Shown here: piece after piece, positions 1,892 to 31,928 of the stretch
How positions within the stretch are numbered: the first letter of the stretch is position 1
Layout: each line of letters begins with the position of its first letter
From: Sphingomonadaceae bacterium
GTDB lineage: Bacteria > Pseudomonadota > Alphaproteobacteria > Sphingomonadales > Sphingomonadaceae
Reading direction: 5' to 3'
NCBI GenBank assembly: GCA_019239915.1
Contig: JAFAZF010000008.1
Location: forward strand, 1-50,814
DNA: 50,814 nucleotides
Notes under the pieces: model-generated
Database searches by the model: none
The model's input: the letters and a program-made list of their open reading frames with translations, nothing else
What the model was told of the DNA's origin: nothing
Made by a program: the position numbers and the translations under genes

Positions 1892-3514
1892 TCACGCCAC
1901 TTCGAGCAGAGGCTCCGGAGCAAACGGTTGCGGTTCCTGCCATTCGCCGCGATCCATCGCGGCGAGGCGGTTGTCGACCATCTCGACCAGGTAGCGCGAG
2001 AAGGCGTAGAGGTGGGCGAACACCGCGATGGTGCGGAGCGCCGCGTCGATCGCCTTCGGATTGTGCTTCAGCACGTCGCGCAGCGTGCCCCAGAAATGGC
2101 GCGCGAGCTCGGGATGGCGCACGGTCATCATCCAAGCGAGCCGCAGCACGGTGCGCGCGTCCCTGAAGATGTTGCCGCGGAGGATCGCCTCGAGCCGGTA
2201 CATCGGCGGCCGCAGCATGCGGCTCATCGCGCGGACGCGGCCGAAATAGGCCTCCGGCGCATAGGCCGTAGCGACCACCTCGCGAAAATCGAGCAGCACC
2301 TCGCGGCGCGGCCGCAGCGTGACGAAATTGAGCCCGGCCGATCCCATATCGCCGGATTGCGTCATCGACTGGCGATAATGGTCGAACAGGCGGCCTTCCT
2401 TGCGCAGCCGGCGGGAAAGCTGCGTGTTCGGTAGCGCGGTGAGCAGCCCGATCGTGGCGATCGGGATAGAGGTATCGCGAATGCAGCCGGCCATCGAGCC
2501 CGCCATTCCGCCGGTTTCGGTATCGAAGCCGACGATGAAGCCCGCCGAGACATAGATGCCGGCGCCGTAGATGCGGTGGACGCTCTCGGCGATGCTGCGG
2601 CGGGTGTTCTGCTTCTTGGCGGTATGGACGAGCGTCGCCTCGTCCGGCGTCTCGATGCCGACGAACACCGAGCTGAAGTTGGCGCGCCGCATCATGCCGA
2701 GAAGCTCGTCGTCGTCCGAGAGGTTGAGCGAGGCTTCGGTGGTGAGGAAGAAGGGGTAGCCATGCGCCTTCTGCCAGGCGGCGAGTTCCGGCAGGAAGAC
2801 CTTCACCGCCTTCTTGTTGCCGATCAGATTGTCGTCGACGAAATCGAGCTGGCCGCGATAGCCGAGCGCGAAGAGGCGATCGAGCTCGGCAAGCATCTGC
2901 GGAGCAGTCTTGGTGCGCGGCGCGCGGCCGTACAGCTCGATGATGTCGCAGAACTCGCAGGTGAACGGACAGCCGCGCGAGAACTGGACGTTGATCCAGA
3001 GATAGTCGCGGAAGTTCAGGAGCTCGAAGCGGGGAATCGGGGTGGTGGTGACGTCCGCCGTGAACTTCTCGGCGGTGATGCGCCCACGACGCTCGCCGGC
3101 TTCCCAGAGCGCGACGAATTCGCCGATCACGCCCTCCGCCTCGCCGACGACGATGAAGTCCGCCTCGTCGTAGAGCTCGGGCGTGGATGTCGGCGCGGGG
3201 CCGCCGAGGCAGACCGGTATCCCGAGCCGCCGGCAACGCTCCATGATCGCGCGGATGTCCGGCTCCTGCGGCAGCATCCCACCAGTCATGACGAGGTCGA
3301 CCTCCGCGAGGTCGGCGTCGCCCAGCGGCACCACATTGTGATCGAGCAGGCGGACGTCCCAATGCCGCGGGAGCAGCGCCGCCAGCGTGATCAGCCCGAG
3401 CGGTGGCGCCAAAGCCTTTGCACCCTGCAGCTTGCAGGTCGCCTTGAAGCTCCAGAACGAATTGTCGTTGAACCGCGGCGAGATCAGCAGAACCCGCGTC
3501 TTCGGAAGGCGCAT
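1892..3514 (-). CDS. B12-binding-domain radical SAM protein (DUF4070 type, HpnP-like)
   Basis: A 540-aa enzyme with an N-terminal cobalamin-binding Rossmann domain (about residues 1-150) and a radical SAM TIM barrel carrying RGCPFTCEFCDI. The CxxxCxxC cluster ligands are C182, C186 and C189. The C-terminal part matches the DUF4070 region shared with hopanoid C-2 methylase HpnP and related enzymes. Such proteins usually transfer methyl groups to unreactive carbon, but the substrate here is unknown. I chose ATG 3514 because AGGGAG (complement of 3522-3527) lies 7 nt upstream; an in-frame ATG at 3565 would add 17 residues of basic, low-complexity sequence. No hopanoid genes are in the window, so hpnP is not assigned. 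Confidence 0.82.
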   Translation of the reverse strand: MRLPKTRVLLISPRFNDNSFWSFKATCKLQGAKALAPPLGLITLAALLPRHWDVRLLDHNVVPLGDADLAEVDLVMTGGMLPQEPDIRAIMERCRRLGIPVCLGGPAPTSTPELYDEADFIVVGEAEGVIGEFVALWEAGERRGRITAEKFTADVTTTPIPRFELLNFRDYLWINVQFSRGCPFTCEFCDIIELYGRAPRTKTAPQMLAELDRLFALGYRGQLDFVDDNLIGNKKAVKVFLPELAAWQKAHGYPFFLTTEASLNLSDDDELLGMMRRANFSSVFVGIETPDEATLVHTAKKQNTRRSIAESVHRIYGAGIYVSAGFIVGFDTETGGMAGSMAGCIRDTSIPIATIGLLTALPNTQLSRRLRKEGRLFDHYRQSMTQSGDMGSAGLNFVTLRPRREVLLDFREVVATAYAPEAYFGRVRAMSRMLRPPMYRLEAILRGNIFRDARTVLRLAWMMTVRHPELARHFWGTLRDVLKHNPKAIDAALRTIAVFAHLYAFSRYLVEMVDNRLAAMDRGEWQEPQPFAPEPLLEVA

Positions 3515-5223: not shown

Positions 5224-7560
5224 TCAACCCGCCGCGCGCTGTTCCCAGCGCGTGCCGACGAGCTCGGTCGCGCGTTCGAAGGGCAGCGGCCGGCCGAACA
5301 GATAGCCTTGGATCTGGTGGCAGCCGAGCTCGGCCATGCGACGATAATCCTCGTGGCTTTCGACGCCCTCGGCGGTGATCGTCATCTGGAAGCAGTTGGC
5401 GAGCGTGACGATCGCCTGGATGATCGAGACCGTCTCGGGACGCGTCGCGGCGCCGCGGACGAAGCTGCCGTCGATCTTGAGCTTGTTGAAGATCGTGCGG
5501 TTGAGATAGCCGAGCGACGAATAGCCGGTGCCGAAATCGTCGAGCGCGATCCGGACGCCGAGCGCGCGAAGGCGCTTGAGCACGTCGAGCGTGGCCGTCG
5601 AGTCGTTGAGGAACACCGACTCGGTGACCTCGAGCTCGAGCCGGTTGGCGGCGAGCCGCGATTTCGCAAGCGCATCGCCGATCATGCCGGGCAGTCCGGG
5701 CGCGAGCAGCTGCAGTGGCGAGAGGTTGACCGCGACCGTGATCGGTTCGGGCCAGCTCGCGGCATCGCGGCAGGCGGTGCGCACGACCCACTCGCCGATG
5801 TCGCCGATCAATCCGGCTTCCTCGGCGACCGGCACGAATACGGTCGGCGAGACGAAGCCGCGCCCGGGATGCTGCCAGCGCAGCAGCGCCTCGAAGCCGG
5901 TGACCTCCTGCGTCTGCGCGTCGACGAGCGGCTGGTAGAGCAGGCGGAACTGATTGCCCTTGAGCGCATCGGCAAGATCGGTCTCGAGGCGGACGCGATC
6001 CTCCGCCTCCTGCGCCAGGCGGGGATCGAAGGTGCGGCAGGTGCCGCGCCCCTGCGCCTTGGCATCGTAGAGCGCGAGATCGGCCTTCTTGAGCAGATCG
6101 TCGACGCTGTTGCCGTCGATCGGGCCGAAGGCGCAGCCGATCGAAAGCCCGATCCGCACCGAGACGGCGTCGAGCGCATAGGGTTCGGTCACGCGTGCGA
6201 TCAGCCGATCGGCAAGCTCGAACACGCGCTTGCGGCTCTGCGCGTCGCCGAGCACGATCGCGAACTCGTCGCCGCCGAGGCGGCCGACGATGCCCTGATC
6301 GCCGACGGTCTCGACGAGGCGCTGCGCGACTGTCTGCAGCACCGCGTCCCCCTGCGGATGGCCGAACGTGTCGTTGACCGGCTTGAAGCCGTCGAGATCG
6401 AGGAAGAGGATCGCGCACGGCACGTTGTTCGCTTGCGCCTGCTCCAGCGCCTGGCCGAGCAACTCGCGGATATGGAGTCGGTTGGGCAGGCCGGTAAGCA
6501 CGTCGAGCCGGGCGAGGTTGCGCAGTCGGCGTTCGGAGCTGCGCGTCTCGGTGATGTCGGTGGCGGTGCCGCGAAAGCCGCGGAACTGGCCGGAGCGATC
6601 GTGGATGGCGTTGCCGGCGATCGCCAGCCAGCGCCGCGCGCCGGCGCTCGACAGCTCGATGTCGACGCTGTCGAATCCGGCCTGCGCGAGCATCGCTTCG
6701 CCGAGCGCGGTGCTGCCGCCGAACAGCGCCGGCAGCGGCTGCCCGATCAGATTGCTCGTCGGCTTGTTGAGCAGCATCGCGATCTGCGGGCTGACGTAGT
6801 GGAGGCGGTTGGCCTCGTCGGTCTGCCACAGCCAACTCGTGCCGTGCTCCTCATATTCGTGCATCAGGCTCGAGAGCATCTGGCTCTGGCGGAGTTCCTC
6901 GCTAGCGCGGCGGATCTGCTTGTCGGCGAGCCCGGCGAAGCGGCGCACCACCGCCAGCACGAAGGCCGCGTCGAACACGAGCAGCGTGCCCTCGGCGATT
7001 GCGAACTTCGACGCGCCGCTCATCCACAGCGCAGCGGCGAGGCCGACGCTCAGCGTCAGCGCCCAGGCGCTGGCGGCGAGCGGCGCAACCGCGATCGCGA
7101 GGGCGCCGCACAGCATCGCGCTGATCGCGCCGGCAAGCAGCACGCGGATCTCGGGGATCTGGTCGGCGAAGACGGCGGCGGGGATCGAGACCCAGATCGC
7201 CGCCGCTATCGCGACGCCGATGCTGGATTCGACGATCACGATTGCCGAGGCGGGGCGCGCGATATGCTCGAAAGCGGTCGCCTGGAGGCGACGCATCGCC
7301 AGCCAGTTGAACGCGACCACCAGGATCGTCCACGATGCCAGGATCGGCATCGCGACGCGCCCCGAGAGCACGAGCGTGATGACAAATGCCGAGAGCGTGC
7401 TCGCGGCCGCGAGCAGCGGCGCGAACTCGGCGAGCGCTTCGATCTGAAGGTTGCGCATCTGGTGCACGTGCGACACCGCCGGCGCGGCGCTCTGGGCGGC
7501 GTCGGCCGTGTCGCTGAGCAGGGCGCGCTTGCGCGCGCTCAGAGCCGGTGAATAGAACAT
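5224..7560 (-). CDS. Membrane-bound PAS-GGDEF-EAL cyclic-di-GMP turnover protein
   Basis: A 778-aa signalling protein. Residues about 40-215 hold several hydrophobic segments that form a membrane sensor region. A PAS domain follows at about 220-345, then GGDEF (about 346-512) with intact RLGGDEF at 429-433, and EAL (about 515-765) with GFEALLRW (EAL at 557-559) and DDFGTGYSSLGYL. Both catalytic signatures are present, so it could both make and degrade cyclic di-GMP. The RxxD inhibitory site that normally lies five residues before GGDEF is absent (GDQG instead), so product inhibition of the cyclase is unlikely. The ligand and dominant activity are unknown. It is transcribed alone, divergent from the epimerase gene. 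Confidence 0.93.
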   Translation of the reverse strand: MFYSPALSARKRALLSDTADAAQSAAPAVSHVHQMRNLQIEALAEFAPLLAAASTLSAFVITLVLSGRVAMPILASWTILVVAFNWLAMRRLQATAFEHIARPASAIVIVESSIGVAIAAAIWVSIPAAVFADQIPEIRVLLAGAISAMLCGALAIAVAPLAASAWALTLSVGLAAALWMSGASKFAIAEGTLLVFDAAFVLAVVRRFAGLADKQIRRASEELRQSQMLSSLMHEYEEHGTSWLWQTDEANRLHYVSPQIAMLLNKPTSNLIGQPLPALFGGSTALGEAMLAQAGFDSVDIELSSAGARRWLAIAGNAIHDRSGQFRGFRGTATDITETRSSERRLRNLARLDVLTGLPNRLHIRELLGQALEQAQANNVPCAILFLDLDGFKPVNDTFGHPQGDAVLQTVAQRLVETVGDQGIVGRLGGDEFAIVLGDAQSRKRVFELADRLIARVTEPYALDAVSVRIGLSIGCAFGPIDGNSVDDLLKKADLALYDAKAQGRGTCRTFDPRLAQEAEDRVRLETDLADALKGNQFRLLYQPLVDAQTQEVTGFEALLRWQHPGRGFVSPTVFVPVAEEAGLIGDIGEWVVRTACRDAASWPEPITVAVNLSPLQLLAPGLPGMIGDALAKSRLAANRLELEVTESVFLNDSTATLDVLKRLRALGVRIALDDFGTGYSSLGYLNRTIFNKLKIDGSFVRGAATRPETVSIIQAIVTLANCFQMTITAEGVESHEDYRRMAELGCHQIQGYLFGRPLPFERATELVGTRWEQRAAG

Positions 7561-24127: not shown

Positions 24128-24835
24128 TCATCGCTGCGTGGCGGCCAGCGCGTCGGCGCCGCGCGGGCGTTCGCCGAGCTGCTCGCCGGTCGCGGCGAAA
24201 TAGACCATCTCGGCGACGTTGGTGGCGTGATCGCCGATCCGCTCGAGATTCTTGGCGACGAACAGCAGGTGGGTCGCCGAGGTGATTGTGGTCGGGTTTT
24301 CCATCATGTGCGTGAGCAGCGCGCGGAACATGCTGTCGTAGAAATCATCCACCGTGCGATCGGTCTCGCAGACCTGCTGCGCCGTGACCGGATCGCGCGC
24401 GGCGAAGGCGTCGAGCGCGTCATGCACCATATTCGAGACGACGCTTGCCATCGGCGGCAGGATCGAGAGCGGCTCGACGTTCGCGGCTTCGGCGATCAGC
24501 GGGACGCGCTTGGCGATGTTCTTGGCATAGTCGCCCATGCGCTCGATCAGGCCGCCGATCTTCAGCGCGGCGAGCACCTCGCGGAGATCGTCCGCGAGCG
24601 GTGCGCGGAGCGCGATCAGGCGCACCACATGCCGTTCGATCTCGGCGTTGATCTCGTCGATCCGGCGGTCCTCCTGGACGATGCCGGCGGCGCCTTCGAG
24701 ATCGCGGCGAACGAGCGCCTCGATCGATCCGCTGATCGCGTTCTCCGCGCGGCCGCCCATTTCGGCGACGAGCCCGCGCAGCTGGGTCAGGTCCTCGTCG
24801 AAGGCCTTGACCGTGTGTCCGTAGCTGTTGGCCAT
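24128..24835 (-). CDS. phoU: Phosphate signalling complex protein PhoU
   Basis: A 235-aa protein made of two PhoU three-helix repeats (about residues 10-105 and 115-210), with metal-binding-type motifs such as NAEIERHVVRLIALRAPLADDLRE and LLFVAKNLERIGDHATNVAE. It links the Pst transporter to PhoR and dampens signalling when phosphate is plentiful. ATG 24835 is preferred over 24850 because GAGGA lies 8 nt upstream. It sits directly between phoR and phoB, and the transporter genes that usually accompany it are missing. Confidence 0.95.
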   Translation of the reverse strand: MANSYGHTVKAFDEDLTQLRGLVAEMGGRAENAISGSIEALVRRDLEGAAGIVQEDRRIDEINAEIERHVVRLIALRAPLADDLREVLAALKIGGLIERMGDYAKNIAKRVPLIAEAANVEPLSILPPMASVVSNMVHDALDAFAARDPVTAQQVCETDRTVDDFYDSMFRALLTHMMENPTTITSATHLLFVAKNLERIGDHATNVAEMVYFAATGEQLGERPRGADALAATQR

Positions 24836-24925
24836 GTCCTGTTTCCTCACGCAACCAGGCCGGCAACGCCAGTGCCGGTCGCGGGCCCCGGCTGCTCCAT
24901 GGCGGCGTTATGCTGCACTTTTATG

Positions 24926-26158
24926 TCAGGCGCTCAAGCGTTCGCCAAGCACCTCGACGGTTGCTTGCGGGAGCAGCACGGTGACGGTCGTGCCCTTGCC
25001 GATCGCGCTCGCGATGTCGAGCCGGCCGCGGTGGCGCTCGACGATGTGCTTGACGATCGCGAGGCCGAGGCCGGTGCCGCCGCCGGCGCGGCTGCGGCCG
25101 GGATCGACGCGATAGAAGCGCTCGGTGAGCCTCGGCAGATGCTCCGGTGGCACGCCGTCGCCCTCGTCCGCCACCGCCAGCGACAGCATGCCCGGCGACG
25201 GCGCCTTGATCGCGATCCGCACCGGACCGCCCGGCTTGCCATATTTGAGCGCGTTGCCGACGAGATTGTGCAGCAGCTGCGAAAGCTGCGCGCGGTCGCC
25301 GGCGGCGTCGGGCAGGCCTGGTGCGACGTCGAGCATGATCTTGGGCGGCTCGGCGGCGCCGGCGCGGCAGGCGTCGGCAACCTCGGCGGCGAGCGGTGCC
25401 AGCGCCACGCGATCCTGCGGCGCGCGATATTTGTCCGCCTCGATGCGCGACAGCGAAAGCAGGTCGTCGATCAGCCGCTGCATGCGCCGCGCTTCCTTGA
25501 GCATCACGCTGAGGAAGCGTGCGCGCACGGTCTCGTCGCCCGGGCCATTGGCGTCCTCGAGCGTCTCGATCAGGCCGAGGATCGCGGCGAGCGGGGTGCG
25601 CAGCTCGTGGCTCGCGTTCGCGACGAAATCGACCCGCATGCGCTCGGTGGCGTAGACTCCGGTGCGGTCGGCGAGGCGCACGAGCCGCTGCGTCGGTCCA
25701 AGCGGGTGAACGCGCAGTTCCCAGCGGCGGTCACGCTCGCCGATGCCGACGAGTTCGATCGGCCGATCGCCGGGCGCGGCGCCAGTGATGCGGTCGGCGG
25801 CGGCGGGATGGCGCAAGGCGACGCGGGCGTCCTCTTCGACGATGTGTTCGCCGAGCACGGCACGCGCGGCCGCGTTCGCTTGCGCAACGCGCCGGCCTTC
25901 GACGACCAGCAGCGGTTCGTCGATCGCCTGGAGGATCGCCGCGAGCTCGGCGGCCGACGTCGCCTGTGCCGCCAGGGCAAGCTCGGCGGCAGGCGCTGCA
26001 TCGTCTTCGACCGCGGTGCGCCGTAGGGCACGCATCGCGATCAGTCCCGCTGCGAGCGCGATCGCGACGGTAAGCGCGCGCGGCAGCTCGGCTGCCAGCG
26101 CGACGCCCGTCAGGACGATCGCCAAGCCGATTAACAGGATGCGCGAGGTGCGTGCCAT
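24926..26158 (-). CDS. phoR: Phosphate regulon sensor histidine kinase PhoR
   Basis: A 410-aa kinase with two N-terminal membrane helices (about residues 5-23 and 27-44), a PAS-like domain (about 70-165), a HisKA domain with FVANASHELRTPL (phosphoacceptor H184) and an HATPase_c domain with NLVGNALKYG (N box), ADEGDGVPPEH (G1) and GGTGLGLAIVKHIVERH (G2). It phosphorylates PhoB. The leader between its stop and phoU is 90 nt. Upstream it is divergent from the Tat-signal protein gene, 98 bp away. Confidence 0.93.
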   Translation of the reverse strand: MARTSRILLIGLAIVLTGVALAAELPRALTVAIALAAGLIAMRALRRTAVEDDAAPAAELALAAQATSAAELAAILQAIDEPLLVVEGRRVAQANAAARAVLGEHIVEEDARVALRHPAAADRITGAAPGDRPIELVGIGERDRRWELRVHPLGPTQRLVRLADRTGVYATERMRVDFVANASHELRTPLAAILGLIETLEDANGPGDETVRARFLSVMLKEARRMQRLIDDLLSLSRIEADKYRAPQDRVALAPLAAEVADACRAGAAEPPKIMLDVAPGLPDAAGDRAQLSQLLHNLVGNALKYGKPGGPVRIAIKAPSPGMLSLAVADEGDGVPPEHLPRLTERFYRVDPGRSRAGGGTGLGLAIVKHIVERHRGRLDIASAIGKGTTVTVLLPQATVEVLGERLSA

Positions 26159-26256: not shown

Positions 26257-26670
26257 ATGGGCGACGAACCGGAACAGCAGGACGAAAAGAGCGGCATGGC
26301 GACCGCGACGCGGCGCGGGGTGCTCATGTTGGGCGCGATCGGCGCCTCGGCGGTGATCACCATCCGCCCGGCGTTGGCCGAGACGGCGGGCTCGGTGCTC
26401 AACTGCAAGATCCCGGTGCCGGATTCGGCCCACGCCAGCCAGTATATCGCGCCTGACGGCAGTATCGTCGCCGCCGGCACGCAGGGCGCCTACCCGCCTG
26501 CGCCGCGACCGCTGACCGGGCAGGAGGTACGCACCGCGATGCAGGGCGGCCCGAGCCCGTCCGGTCTCTCGCCCGATCAGTCGCGCGCATACATCAACTA
26601 TATCCGCCGGCTGCAGCAGGGGCAGAGCGGGTTCACCTGCTACGCCTCGCTCCAGAGCCCGCGCGGCTGA
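26257..26670 (+). CDS. Small Tat-exported protein, function unknown
   Basis: A 137-aa protein with a twin-arginine signal, TRRGVLMLGAIGASAVITIRPALA (R19-R20, cleavage near A41). The mature part is only about 96 residues, rich in Pro, Gly and Ser, with two cysteines (C50 in VLNCKIPVPD and C128 in GFTCYASLQ) that could form a disulfide. No enzyme motif is visible. It precedes the PqqD/HprK-like/nucleotidyltransferase cassette on the same strand but is separated from it by 151 bp holding a REP pair. A link to that cassette is a hypothesis. ATG 26257 is chosen; 26296 is an alternative. Confidence 0.65.
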   Translation: MGDEPEQQDEKSGMATATRRGVLMLGAIGASAVITIRPALAETAGSVLNCKIPVPDSAHASQYIAPDGSIVAAGTQGAYPPAPRPLTGQEVRTAMQGGPSPSGLSPDQSRAYINYIRRLQQGQSGFTCYASLQSPRG

Positions 26671-26692
26671 CACGGGCGAGCAGGCCGCCTCA

Positions 26693-26783
26693 CTCCGTTC
26701 GTGCTGAGCTTGTTCGAAGCACTGTTCTTCTTTTCCTCACGAAGAAAAGAACAGCCCTTCGAACAGGCTCAAGGCGAACGGGA
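26693..26783. repeat. REP-type inverted pair, CCGTTCGTcctGAGC family, copies E and F
   Basis: Copy E (26693-26722) has stem GTGCT/AGCAC (26701-26705, 26718-26722). Copy F (26754-26783, opposite orientation) has stem CCTT/AAGG (26756-26759, 26771-26774). Both keep the CCGTTCG flank and the TGTTCGAA loop. Between them CTGTTCTT (26722-26729) pairs with AAGAACAG (26747-26754), so the whole site can fold into nested hairpins. It separates the Tat-signal gene from the PqqD-like gene. Confidence 0.8.
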
Positions 26784-26821
26784 GAGAGGCATCTTAACCG
26801 GCGATGCGCTAGCGGGCTGAC

Positions 26822-27112
26822 ATGCCGTCGATCGCCGCCACCCCCACCTATCGCGCTGACCCGCCGGGCTCGCTGCGCATGGTCGCGCTCGAAGACGGCT
26901 TGGTGCTGCTCTTCCATAGGCCGTCGGCGACCACGCACGTCGTCGCGTCGCCGGTGCCCGAGCTGCTCGCCGCGCTCGACGAGGGACCGGCGGACGCCAC
27001 GACGCTGCTCGGCCGTCTCGCAGCGCGGCACGATCTCGACGATCCGGACGCGGCCGCGCTCGCGGAGCGGCTGGAGGAGCTGGCGGCGGCGGGCTTGGTT
27101 GCCCGCTTATGA
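26822..27112 (+). CDS. PqqD-like protein of the HprK-related kinase cassette
   Basis: A 96-aa PqqD-family protein. LVLLFHRPSATTHVVASPVPELLAALDEGPA is the strand-turn-helix core where PqqD-type domains bind peptides, followed by a helical C-terminus (LAERLEELAAAGLVARL). In other systems such domains present a precursor peptide to a modifying enzyme. It overlaps the kinase-like gene by 4 bp (ATGA), which shows translational coupling. I recall this branch as part of the uncharacterised 'HPr-rel-A' gene set. No radical SAM or other peptide-modifying enzyme is adjacent. Confidence 0.78.
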   Translation: MPSIAATPTYRADPPGSLRMVALEDGLVLLFHRPSATTHVVASPVPELLAALDEGPADATTLLGRLAARHDLDDPDAAALAERLEELAAAGLVARL

Positions 27113-27969
27113 GGCATAATCTCGCACTGCAGGTGGGTGATGTGGGCTTCCGCGTCGGTTCGGCGTGGCGTGCGCCAATCGCTGCGCTGCGCGCGCTTTA
27201 CGCCGGCTATCCGGAGCCCGCGATCGCGGAGTTCACGGTCCGGCTCGAACCCGAGCGACCGTTGCGCCGCTGGGTGCGCCCTTCAATCGCGATCGCCGGC
27301 GACTATACGCTACCGGAAGCCGCGCCGCTCGCGCTGGCGCACGGGTTGCTCGCCGCCGAAATGGGGATGAACCTGCAGATGGCGCTCGGTCACCGCCGCC
27401 ATCTGCTGCTCCACGCCGCCGCGCTGGAGCGCGACGGCAAGGCGTTGCTGCTCAGCGGCGTCTCGGGGGCGGGCAAGTCGACGCTGGCGGCGCTGCTCGG
27501 CGAGCGCGGCTGGCGGTTCATGGGCGACGAGTTCGCGCTCATCGACCTTACCGACGGGCGCGCGCATGCCTTTCCGCGCGCGGTGAGCCTCAAGAACGAA
27601 TCGGTCGCGGTGATGGCACGCGAAGCGAAGCCGGATCGCTTCGGTCCGGAGCTGCGTAACACGCCCAAGGGCACGATCCGACATTTGCGTCCGCGCGGCG
27701 ATGCGATCGCGCGGATGCGCGAGCCGGCCCCGCCGGCGCTGCTGCTCTTCCCCCGTTTCGGGGAAACGGAGGCGGTGCGGCTGCTCGGGAGCGCGGAGGT
27801 GTTCGTGCGGCTGACGCAGGCCTCGACCAACTATGTCGCGCTCGGCGAGCCCGGCTTCGCGGCGCTAAGCCGGCTGGTGCGCGGCGTGCCGGCCCGGGCG
27901 ATCGACTATTCCGATACGAAGAGCGCGATCGCGCTGGTCGAACGGTTGTGGCGCGAGCTTGCGGCATGA
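27109..27969 (+). CDS. HprK-related kinase (HPr-rel-A type)
   Basis: A 286-aa protein related to the catalytic domain of HPr kinase/phosphorylase. The Walker A loop is GVSGAGKST (residues 117-125), preceded by LLHAAALERDGKALLLS. The following RGWRFMGDEFALID carries D140-E141 where HPr kinase has its DD metal site. The N-terminal 90 residues are not the usual HprK N-domain. True HprK phosphorylates Ser46 of HPr; no HPr or PTS gene is in the window and the substrate is unknown. It is coupled by 4-bp ATGA overlaps at both ends to the PqqD-like and nucleotidyltransferase genes. Confidence 0.82.
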   Translation: MRHNLALQVGDVGFRVGSAWRAPIAALRALYAGYPEPAIAEFTVRLEPERPLRRWVRPSIAIAGDYTLPEAAPLALAHGLLAAEMGMNLQMALGHRRHLLLHAAALERDGKALLLSGVSGAGKSTLAALLGERGWRFMGDEFALIDLTDGRAHAFPRAVSLKNESVAVMAREAKPDRFGPELRNTPKGTIRHLRPRGDAIARMREPAPPALLLFPRFGETEAVRLLGSAEVFVRLTQASTNYVALGEPGFAALSRLVRGVPARAIDYSDTKSAIALVERLWRELAA

Positions 27970-29006
27970 GCGCGCGGTTGCTCGTCACGGCGCTGGTCGA
28001 TCCCGGATCGACGATAGCCCTGTCCTCCGCGCAATGGACCGCGCTGATCGCGATCGCCCGCGCGGAACAGTTGATTGGCAGCCTCGCGTATCGCTTGGAC
28101 GGACTGGCACTCCCCGAACCCGTCGAGAATATCATGGCAGCGGCGCGCGCCTCGGCCGAGCAGCAACGCTTGCGCGCCTTGTGGGAGGCGGAGATGGCGC
28201 GTCGCGCGCTGGCGCCGCTTGCCGTCCCGGTGGTGCTGCTTAAAGGAACCGCCTTCGTCGCGGCAGGGTTGGATGCCGGCGTCGGCCGCTCGATCGGCGA
28301 TCTCGACATCCTCGTGCCGCGTGCGCGCATCGACGAGGCCGAAGCGGCGTTGCTCGGCGCGGGCTGGGAGCGGATCAAGGCCGATGCCTATGATGACGCC
28401 TATTATCGCCGCTGGATGCATGAGCTGCCGCCGCTGATCCATGTCGAGCGCGATCGCATGATCGACGTCCACCATACGATCCTGCCGCCGACCGCGCGGC
28501 CGAAACCGGATGCGGCGCGAATGATCGCCGAGCGGATCGAGCTCGGTAACGGGCTTGCGATCCTTTCACCGGCCGACATCGTCATCCACGCCGCCGCGCA
28601 CCTGTTTGCGGACGGCGATCTTGCGGGCGGCCTGCGCAACCTCTGGGATATCGATCGGCTGTGCCGGGAGTTCGGCGAGCGCGACGAAGGTTCCTACCTG
28701 CGGCTGGTAGAGGAAGCCTATGCCGCGAAGCTCGGTCCGCACGTTCTGCGCGCGTTGAGGCTGACGCATCATCTCTACGCAACGCCGGTTCCCGCCTATC
28801 ATCAAGCCTTCCGTCTCGCGGTCGAGCTGACGCCGTCGGACCGCCTCTTCCTCCACCGCCTGCTGGCGCGAGACGCGTGGGGGCGGCCGATACGCTCGGT
28901 TACCCGCTTCGGCTTCTACGTCCGCTCGCACGCGCTGCGGATGCCGCCGCATCTGCTCGCCCGGCACCTGGCGATCAAATGGTGGAAGAGCCGGAGGTCA
29001 GCCTAG
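27966..29006 (+). CDS. Nucleotidyltransferase family protein of the HprK-related cassette
   Basis: A 346-aa protein of the large NTP_transf_5-like family. The core is VVLLKGTAF (residues 89-97) and VGRSIGDLDILVPRARIDEAE, in which D112 and D114 form the nucleotidyltransferase metal pair. The conserved later stretch HELPPLIHVERDRMIDVHHTI supplies the third acidic and His residues, and SPADIVIHAAAHLFADGDL follows. It could transfer a nucleotide or use a sugar nucleotide; the substrate is unknown. It is last in the cassette, overlaps the kinase gene by ATGA, and is followed by a large inverted repeat. Confidence 0.8.
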   Translation: MSARLLVTALVDPGSTIALSSAQWTALIAIARAEQLIGSLAYRLDGLALPEPVENIMAAARASAEQQRLRALWEAEMARRALAPLAVPVVLLKGTAFVAAGLDAGVGRSIGDLDILVPRARIDEAEAALLGAGWERIKADAYDDAYYRRWMHELPPLIHVERDRMIDVHHTILPPTARPKPDAARMIAERIELGNGLAILSPADIVIHAAAHLFADGDLAGGLRNLWDIDRLCREFGERDEGSYLRLVEEAYAAKLGPHVLRALRLTHHLYATPVPAYHQAFRLAVELTPSDRLFLHRLLARDAWGRPIRSVTRFGFYVRSHALRMPPHLLARHLAIKWWKSRRSA

Positions 29007-29011
29007 GCGTT

Positions 29012-29087
29012 GTGCTCCTGCGAAAGCAGGAGCCGATCTCGTAGGCTGTCCTCCGCCTCAGGCTGGCTCCTGCTTTCGCAGGAGCAC
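29012..29087. repeat. Perfect 23-bp inverted repeat whose arms are themselves hairpins
   Basis: The arms 29012-29034 and 29065-29087 are exact reverse complements separated by 30 nt. Each arm folds on its own: GCTCCTGC/GCAGGAGC with a GAAA loop in the first and TTTC in the second. It lies between the convergent nucleotidyltransferase and gph genes, 5 and 8 nt from their stop codons, and may act as a two-way terminator, though without a T-run. This GCTCCTGC-GAAA-GCAGGAGC unit is a common sphingomonad dispersed repeat, as far as I recall. Confidence 0.85.
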
Positions 29088-31193: not shown

Positions 31194-31224
31194 TATCGTG
31201 ATATGATATCGTGATATCATGCGC
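31186..31224. promoter_or_regulatory. Palindromic operator of the RHH/PIN toxin-antitoxin pair
   Basis: GCGCATGATATC (31186-31197) and GATATCATGCGC (31213-31224) are exact reverse complements, 15 nt apart. Inside are two direct copies of TGATATCGTGATA (31191-31203, 31204-31216) with a 13-bp period. The left arm contains the glmU stop (TGA 31191-31193) and the right arm the antitoxin ATG (31219). TATGAT (31202-31207) could be a -10 element, which would give a nearly leaderless transcript. RHH antitoxins usually bind such repeats and repress their own operon. Confidence 0.7.
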
Positions 31225-31563
31225 ACCCTCATCGATATTCCCGAGGACGACATCAAGTGGCTCGACCGCGAGGCGTCCGAGCAGGGCCGGTCACGCGCCG
31301 CGCTGGTGCGCGAGGCAGTTGCGGCTTACCGCGCGCGGACGGCGCCAGCGGGCGATACGCGCTGGCTCGATGACGCCTTCGGTATTTGGAAGGACCGCAC
31401 CGACATCGGCGACGCGGTGGAGTGGCAGCGGCGCGAGCGGGCGAGTTGGACGCGGCCGTGGGACGACGACTATGAGGAGGTCCGCGCCGAATTCCCCGAT
31501 CTCTTCGATGCAGAGGATGATCGCCAGCGACAGATCTATCTTCGGCAGCGCGACGCCAAGTGA
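31219..31563 (+). CDS. Ribbon-helix-helix antitoxin (VapB-like)
   Basis: A 114-aa protein with an N-terminal ribbon-helix-helix DNA-binding domain: strand MRTLIDIPEDD, then KWLDREASEQGRSRAALVREAVAAYRA. The acidic, tryptophan-rich C-terminus (residues about 45-114) probably wraps the toxin. There is no Shine-Dalgarno sequence; the ATG lies in the operator palindrome, so translation may be leaderless. It overlaps the PIN toxin gene by 4 bp. Length is greater than for most VapB proteins. Confidence 0.82.
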   Translation: MRTLIDIPEDDIKWLDREASEQGRSRAALVREAVAAYRARTAPAGDTRWLDDAFGIWKDRTDIGDAVEWQRRERASWTRPWDDDYEEVRAEFPDLFDAEDDRQRQIYLRQRDAK

Positions 31564-31928
31564 GCGATCACTCCTTCGACAGCAATATCCTCATTGACGC
31601 GCTTAACGGGGTGTCGGACGCGCGCAGCGAGATCGCGCGCGTCGATCGCCGCTGGATCAGCCGCCTCACCTGGATTGAGGTCTTGTCCAAGGAAGGGGGT
31701 GGGACGGTGGCGACGATCGAGCGTTTTCTCGGCGGCTTCATGATTGACGAAGTTTCAGTTGAGATCGCGTCGCGGGCGGCGCAGCTGCGACGGCAGCGAT
31801 CGGGGCTGAAGCTGGCGGACGCGGTGATCCTTGCTTCCGCCCAGACCGCCGGCCGTATTCTCGTCACGCGCAACACCAAGGACTTCCCGGCGGCGATGCC
31901 TGGCGTCCGCATTCCCTACACCCTCTAA
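31560..31928 (+). CDS. PIN-domain ribonuclease toxin (VapC-like)
   Basis: A 122-aa PIN-domain protein. Acidic metal-binding residues are in place: D7 (SFDSNILIDAL), E40 (LTWIEVLS), D87 (KLADAVILASA) and D108 near the end (VTRNTKDF). VapC toxins cleave tRNA or rRNA and are blocked by the bound antitoxin. It overlaps the antitoxin gene by ATGA and ends 14 nt before glmS, so the pair is inserted between glmU and glmS. Confidence 0.87.
   Translation: MSDHSFDSNILIDALNGVSDARSEIARVDRRWISRLTWIEVLSKEGGGTVATIERFLGGFMIDEVSVEIASRAAQLRRQRSGLKLADAVILASAQTAGRILVTRNTKDFPAAMPGVRIPYTL

Follow-up and report, generated by a model that had tools for sequence, protein, structure and literature searches.

An HPr kinase-related cassette and its small exported partner in a Sphingomonadaceae bacterium: a proposed four-gene protein-tailoring system

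Kinases related to HPr kinase have a described role in lasso peptide biosynthesis. According to passages of PMC9266682 and PMC8498205, such kinases phosphorylate the C-terminal serine of the precursor, and PsmN, annotated as a nucleotidyltransferase, transfers one or two hexoses onto the phosphoserine in vivo; a passage of PMC9266682 also gives the lasso kinases a His-Lys-Asp-Asp set of residues. In part of a rumen survey (PMC7533575), lasso clusters are reported together with genes for HPr kinase, PqqD and a nucleotidyltransferase. Precursors carrying an export signal are described in excerpts of PMC12452194 for bufferins and other MNIO-modified ribosomally synthesized and post-translationally modified peptides (RiPPs) with Sec signal peptides, where the authors speculate that a partner protein masks the export signal until modification. 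A further system, HPr-rel-A (TIGR04352/TIGR04353), is defined by curated models, and the model descriptions examined state no function or target. Here an HPr-rel-A locus was analysed at positions 26257 to 29006 of a 50,814-nucleotide stretch of DNA from a Sphingomonadaceae bacterium (GenBank assembly GCA_019239915.1, contig JAFAZF010000008.1), the whole of which is termed the window. It consists of a gene for a small protein with an export signal, followed by a cassette of three genes (pqqD, hprK and a nucleotidyltransferase gene). The reading preferred here, and considered modestly probable, is that the locus is a four-gene protein-tailoring system in which the cassette phosphorylates, and then decorates, a C-terminal serine of its own exported protein. 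The four genes are as follows.

26257..26670, plus strand: exported partner and probable substrate, 137 amino acids (aa) (open reading frame (ORF), conservation and co-occurrence across genomes)
26822..27112, plus strand: PqqD_rel_X protein (TIGR04353), 96 aa, putative precursor-recognition protein (58.2 bits, cut-off 35)
27109..27969, plus strand: HprK_rel_A kinase (TIGR04352), 286 aa (220.8 bits, cut-off 200)
27966..29006, plus strand: nucleotidyltransferase-fold protein (NTP_transf_5, PF14907), 346 aa (165.9 bits, gathering cut-off 31.2)

A preliminary description of this DNA had given the same gene coordinates, all of which hold, and had used the name HPr-rel-A, which is correct: kinase and PqqD-like protein are both members by curated cut-off. 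The ATGA overlaps that it reported were confirmed between pqqD and hprK at 27109 and between hprK and the nucleotidyltransferase gene at 27966. The Walker A motif of the kinase is intact (GVSGAGKST, 27457-27483) and is followed by ...MGDE. The GDE sequence, described earlier as replacing the Asp-Asp site of HPr kinase, is present but is no peculiarity of this protein, because H102 (27412-27414), K123, D140 and E141 (D140-E141 at 27526-27531) are invariant across 75 aligned HprK_rel_A proteins. The transferase keeps its DxD pair, D112 and D114 (28299-28307), and these residues, together with K93-G94 and R108, were kept in 77 aligned sequences. A third conserved Asp, D167 (28464-28466), was present in 99% of the 77, and D112, D114 and D167 were all invariant in the 34 sequences of alignment A5. 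From these residues, the kinase and the transferase both look catalytically intact.

The kinase resembles HPr kinase/phosphorylase (HprK) in its P-loop region and in the His, Lys and Asp that align to HPr kinase 1jb1 at a non-significant E of 0.13. It differs in its family scores, which fall far under the cut-offs of TIGR00679 (E 0.001; 18.3 against 240 bits) and PF07475 (18.2 against 33.3 bits), and in that a separate HPr gene lies on another contig; the candidate role of HprK_rel_A as the HPr kinase of this genome was rejected on both grounds. The earlier statement that no HPr or radical SAM gene is present holds locally but, for HPr, not genome-wide and, for radical SAM, not across the whole window. 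A B12-binding radical SAM protein with DUF4070 is encoded at 1892-3514, 23 kb from the cassette.

With lasso tailoring (PadeK/ThcoK/SyanK and PsmK/PsmN) the cassette has in common a PqqD-like partner and an HprK-like kinase with an H-K-D core, and with lasso-type clusters of the same bacterial family it shares a PF14907-type transferase and an acceptor Ser near the C-terminus, which is putative here. The earlier verdict that none of the usual roles fits was too strong, because all three kinds of protein (PqqD-like, HprK-like kinase, nucleotidyltransferase) are employed in lasso clusters. Several features set the locus apart. Neither PF13471 (B2 protease) nor PF00733 (cyclase) was found among eight flanking proteins (22.2-31.9 kb) in a Pfam scan; PF13471 was found in comparator L317 and PF00733 in comparator L320. 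The window kinase carries H-K-D-E where lasso kinases carry H-K-D-D, and the HprK_rel_A-conserved residues N163, T185, K187, P215 and N241 do not occur in the compared lasso kinases. The candidate substrate is an exported protein with a cleavable-type signal, whereas that of lasso systems is a short peptide. By the features tested, the cassette is not a lasso system. Bufferins share the export signal on the precursor and differ, according to excerpts of PMC12452194, in being modified by iron oxidases, mostly on Cys, and in using a Sec signal, here twin-arginine. As in RiPP loci, a recognition element, modifying enzymes and a precursor-like gene are encoded together, with roles assigned by homology only.

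In openly licensed full text, no paper was found that names the HprK_rel_A kinase or that treats PqqD together with exosortase. By title, openly licensed papers on a RiPP recognition element with HPr kinase concerned lasso peptides only, and by title or the start of the abstract, those on a RiPP precursor peptide with twin-arginine concerned other topics only.

Lasso-type clusters in the window's family were reached by following kinase and PqqD matches that score below cut-off. L317 combines such a kinase, and a PqqD-like protein that stays below the cut-off of each model, with a PF14907 transferase and a PF13471 protease; L316 has PF14907, L320 has asparagine synthase (PF00733), and small ORFs ending in Ser were called in all three. 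None of the lasso-type clusters examined had every part confirmed by model.

The same matches also led to a separate sphingomonad arrangement, observed in four of five loci examined and combining a Gly-rich protein that has a twin-arginine (RR) signal with a divergent HprK-like kinase (369-401 aa) and a transferase. The Gly-rich proteins (L323, about 7080-7490; L324:4757-5203; L325:7089-7409; L326:5484-5759) read PPAMT.L.STSL...AIA, followed in three of the four by PPGNPP.NDGPG; the fifth locus, L327, had only a 63-aa RR-containing protein. The transferase was confirmed as PF14907 in L324 and L325 and recognised by eye in the others. A PqqD-like N-terminus is suggested for the divergent kinases of L323-L325 by a comparison of three sequences (hhalign 34%, E 4e-4).

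The 137-aa protein encoded upstream of the cassette had been described as Tat-like with two cysteines, and it has exactly two, C50 (26404-26406) and C128 (26638-26640). Its signal reads TRRGVLML...PALA, with the RR codons at 26311-26316 and a likely cleavage site after PALA, ending at 26379; the twin-Arg motif, hydrophobic stretch and AxA-like cleavage site were judged by eye and regular expression. Because of the RR motif, export by the twin-arginine translocation (Tat) pathway is likely. The C-terminal tail is T127-C128-Y-A-S131, with the Ser codon at 26647-26649, and residues R20, L23, S46, C50, G125, C128 and S131 are invariant in 40 aligned sphingomonad-type exported proteins. The protein had no Pfam or NCBIfam match at E 0.1, the curated Tat-signal model included, and its counterpart is labelled 'hypothetical protein' in the one public sphingomonad record examined.

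Co-conservation of the three cassette genes, set beforehand as a test, was found in a sample of 149 genomes of the window's bacterial family. HprK_rel_A scored over cut-off in 45 genomes (some match at E 0.001 in 142) and PqqD_rel_X in 45 (some match in 54), the exported protein was matched in 45, and the three sets of 45 were identical (Fisher P 3e-39, kinship ignored). The transferase accompanied hprK in 44 of 45 loci, the remaining locus (L061) ending at a contig end. A second test set beforehand also came out in favour: the exported protein occurred in none of the 149 genomes without the cassette, barring a weak match in G017, the one genome added by profile A1 (E 8e-5), where no such gene was called; nor was one called at a second, weak A1 match in G074 (E 2e-4). 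Of the 45 single-sequence matches to the exported protein, six had weak E values, between 9e-8 and 1e-3; in those genomes profile A1 gave no weaker value than 7e-11. In each of four genera (g22, g36, g50 and g68), one genome had all three parts and one had none, the parts changing together. The order exported protein, pqqD, hprK, transferase was kept in nearly all of 44 neighbourhoods and in the window; the exported protein was missing from its usual place in L039, L068 and L069, and L061 stops before the transferase.

A second set, the named loci, consisted of the best 80 of at least 590 and held close relatives, mostly Sphingomonas with Sphingobium, Hephaestia, Parasphingopyxis, Sphingosinicella and Stakelama. 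The exported protein was located by tblastn in 78 of the 80, the other two being cut upstream at a contig end; the gene caller alone missed it in 27 of 80. Where the caller found all four genes, the gap between the tat gene and pqqD was 29 nucleotides (nt) or less in 33 of 42 loci. The preliminary description had proposed the exported protein as a partner with reserve, as a pair of repetitive extragenic palindromic (REP) elements separates it from pqqD; these short gaps allow a stronger statement. In the window the gap measures 151 nt and is spanned by the following feature.

26695..26781, no strand: REP-like inverted repeat pair between the tat gene and pqqD (dispersed repeat)

The pair is real, with arms at 26695-26735 and 26741-26781 that are 80% complementary, and the genome has 43 further matches, among them a few that represent one copy read on both strands. 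Because the gap is so short in 33 of 42 relatives, the pair looks like a local insertion in the window; it is a dispersed repeat outside the system. A perfect 23-nt inverted repeat lies at 29012-29087, just 3' of the cassette, so that inverted repeats stand on either side of the three-gene block.

The upstream protein could instead be a mere genomic neighbour kept by synteny, the trio acting on something else. Among sphingomonads adjacency is not independent evidence on this point, because most of their loci share one chromosomal place. However, seven genomes in which the exported protein lies away from the kinase (G040, G042, G122, G216, G228, G170 and G271) all keep both, and different RR-signal proteins occupy the same slot in other groups and places; this explanation is accordingly regarded as very improbable. 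In four of the seven (G040, G216, G170 and G271) the exported protein stands beside PqqD, apart from the kinase (PqqD over cut-off in G040, judged by eye in the other three). Besides an RR protein adjoining its kinase, G328 has a second pair of exported protein and PqqD-like protein (L305:1530-2230); as only one kinase match in this genome exceeds the cut-off, a single kinase may have two substrates there.

Beyond the family, the kinase scored over cut-off in 61 of 398 sampled genomes of the phylum, and neighbourhoods were taken for 53 of the 61. In two further groups a small RR-signal protein, unlike the sphingomonad protein in sequence, is encoded directly upstream of the PqqD gene. The second group, known only to be of the same phylum, is taken as Betaproteobacteria and the third as Gammaproteobacteria, the third assignment being aided by a named Vibrio plasmid. 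By a home-made scorer, 74 of 84 loci had an RR-signal ORF no more than 1.8 kb upstream of hprK, compared with 38 of 271 control genes; eight loci in which hprK was not called are outside this count. Scored per gene, 60 of 1385 other called genes had such a signal. With a looser finder and the eight loci included, an RR-signal protein was found at 82 of 92. Among the ten misses, L055, L072 and L177 have the protein (at a contig end or outside the scorer), L158 has it on the opposite strand, and G040, G042, G122, G216 and G228 carry it elsewhere; in L188, whose kinase is below cut-off, no exported protein was found. When locus readings were added, the partner was present in 60 of 61 kinase genomes, the exception being G332, whose genome is 57% complete and whose kinase gene lies where a contig ends. 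Profile A2, built for the second group, matched 39 of 398 genomes, each with HprK_rel_A over cut-off. When sampling was done at the level of the order, centred on a third-group genome, the kinase was present in 16 of 148 genomes and all 16 loci had an RR-signal ORF upstream, 12 of them new and four already in the phylum sample (looser scorer, no control run). A Vibrio alfacsensis plasmid carries four in a row: an RR-signal 'hypothetical protein', an unannotated 84-aa ORF in the PqqD slot, an HprK-related kinase A and a nucleotidyltransferase family protein.

A C-terminal Cys-x-x-Ser tail is common to the first two groups. The motif [ST]C[FWYLIM]xS[LFI], counted on the very sequences from which it was written, occurred in 70 of 72 exported proteins (45 of 46 sphingomonad-type and 25 of 26 second-group), against a background of 5 of 1489. 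With V also allowed at the end it was found in 77 of 78 exported proteins of the named loci, the exception (L259) being a match that stops short where the stretch reads as unknown residues. Invariant in 24 second-group proteins are the RR pair, K43, P53, T57, three Cys and C161-W162-x-S164; profile comparison with the sphingomonad proteins aligns the signal region only (96.6%). The third-group proteins likewise align with the other two families in the signal region only. They have an SPG[FWYN] motif (searched as [ST]PG[FWYN]) in 16 of 24 distinct sequences (18 of 28 rows; background 10 of 500), and the proteins in their PqqD slot are still PqqD-like (hhalign 98.2%). No family scored over cut-off for exported proteins of these other groups (eight against Pfam, seven of these against NCBIfam).

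The trio recurs with peptides or with exported proteins and is therefore read as a tailoring set. A wider proposal, plausible enough to state though not to favour, is that a widespread and unrecognised tailoring class exists in which PqqD-guided HprK-like kinases and PF14907 transferases put a phospho- or phosphoglyco-group on Tat-exported proteins. Such a class would serve at least three unrelated substrate families, namely proteins with Cys-x-x-Ser tails, SPGxW proteins and the Gly-rich proteins beside divergent kinases, and lasso tailoring would be its peptide branch.

The surroundings of the cassette bear on two other explanations. In the window, divergent genes upstream of it encode a sensor kinase of phoR type, a PhoU protein and a regulator of phoB type; on the downstream side it is followed by genes for a HAD hydrolase and a glmU-type protein (neighbour names beyond the domains are our own, with glmU and glmS so annotated in a sphingomonad relative). 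The nearest of these is the following.

24926..26158, minus strand: phoR-type sensor kinase, divergent neighbour (HisKA and HATPase_c; name inferred from domains and pst/phoU context)

In the window the phoR-type gene directly adjoins phoU (24128-26158), and many relatives have pst-type genes in between; a PstB match that exceeds the cut-off was found on a different contig, C12. Between glmU and glmS, a ribbon-helix-helix and PIN-domain pair resembling a toxin-antitoxin module (31219-31928) was seen here and in about ten relatives. Sphingomonad cassettes mostly stand between phosphate-regulon-type genes and glmU/glmS, and a phoR-type neighbour was found in 30 of 45 sphingomonad loci by the gene picking used. 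This gene is treated as genomic context of the cassette, not as a demonstrated part of the system.

That neighbour, often with pst-type genes, and the HprK homology would suit a regulatory phosphorylation in which HprK_rel_A acts as an on-off switch for the exported protein or for a different one, perhaps in response to phosphate status. The phoR context is, however, absent from the second and third groups and from some sphingomonads, and an exported target would be beyond dephosphorylation in the cytoplasm. Among 77 upstream stretches of related loci no common upstream site emerged, though short words are shared: the word GTGAAAGG occurred in 15 of 77 (shuffles: mean 0.2, at most 1), and 5 of 77 held a loose inverted repeat (shuffle mean 0.1). 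A regulatory switch is therefore thought improbable.

In the second and third groups, scanned with one example per neighbour cluster, the cassette stands among XrtA/PEP-CTERM exopolysaccharide genes, including the TIGR03088 glycosyltransferase, the TIGR03108 amidotransferase, the TIGR03006 deacetylase, TIGR03019 and PrsK/PrsR/PrsT. Together with glmU and glmS, amino-sugar genes that are common sphingomonad neighbours, this fits a role in which the trio makes an activated sugar or nucleotide-sugar for a surface polysaccharide, the kinase phosphorylating the sugar, the transferase activating it, and the exported protein being a polymer-associated or sensor component of the same pathway. Such a role leaves PqqD, a peptide-binding fold, unexplained, and the exported protein and PqqD stay together in the four split genomes named above. 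Moreover, besides glmU/glmS, a sphingomonad record and the Vibrio alfacsensis plasmid have no annotated polysaccharide genes nearby. Sugar activation is rated unlikely, though less so than a regulatory switch. A surface or matrix role of the exported protein is a guess suggested only by the exopolysaccharide neighbourhood of related loci. Exosortase was tried as a required and specific partner in sphingomonads and rejected: 124 of 149 genomes have it, which, with the cassette in 45, leaves at least 79 that have exosortase without the cassette, and it is missing from two genomes that do carry the cassette, G012 and G117.

Several observations weigh against tailoring of the exported protein by the cassette. 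The co-occurrence P values take no account of phylogeny, and co-occurrence alone is no proof because one operon can be lost as a unit. Co-divergence was mixed: the distance partial r between the Tat protein and HprK was 0.62 in 37 sphingomonad genomes and 0.11 in 16 second-group genomes, and that between the Tat protein and PqqD was 0.01 and 0.16, respectively. The remaining three of the seven split genomes do not have exported protein and PqqD side by side; the exported protein adjoins the phoR-type gene in G042 and G122, where PqqD stays with the kinase, and stands alone in G228, where PqqD was not located. Given the origin of the tail motif, its contrast with the background describes and does not test. 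The third-group exported proteins are without it (0 of 10, then 0 of 24 distinct), so that either a different acceptor is used there or the motif has another meaning. Whereas lasso precursors end in the acceptor Ser, the conserved Ser here is followed by further residues, and at the sequence level the kinase is only weakly related to HPr kinase in the PDB. The RR-signal counts depend on the scorer, and, with no match to the curated Tat model, export by Tat rather than Sec rests on the RR motif.

Taken from the lasso-peptide precedent, the tailoring mechanism would run as follows. The small protein would be made in the cytoplasm with its twin-arginine-like export signal and bound by PqqD, probably at or near that N-terminal signal, for presentation to both enzymes. 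The HprK-like kinase would then phosphorylate a Ser in the C-terminal tail, most likely S131 of T-C-Y-A-S, and the transferase would add a further group to the phosphate, a hexose by analogy with PsmN and otherwise a nucleotide. The decorated protein would be exported, probably via Tat, and C50 and C128 may form a disulphide outside. The data themselves show which genes these are, that all four are conserved together, and that the catalytic-type residues and the Cys-x-x-Ser tail are kept. We infer from the same precedent that the small protein is the substrate, as well as the site, the order of the steps and the group added.

Over cut-off, the kinase is present in 45 of the 149 family genomes and in 61 of the 398 sampled from the phylum, and one genome collection holds relatives of the transferase at no fewer than 590 loci. 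With a dedicated partner whose short tail bears an invariant Ser, this orphan family gains a candidate target that can be tested directly. If the proposal is true, tailoring by HprK-like kinases and PF14907 transferases would extend from lasso peptides to exported proteins, and the mechanistic question raised is how the precursor is kept from export until it has been modified.

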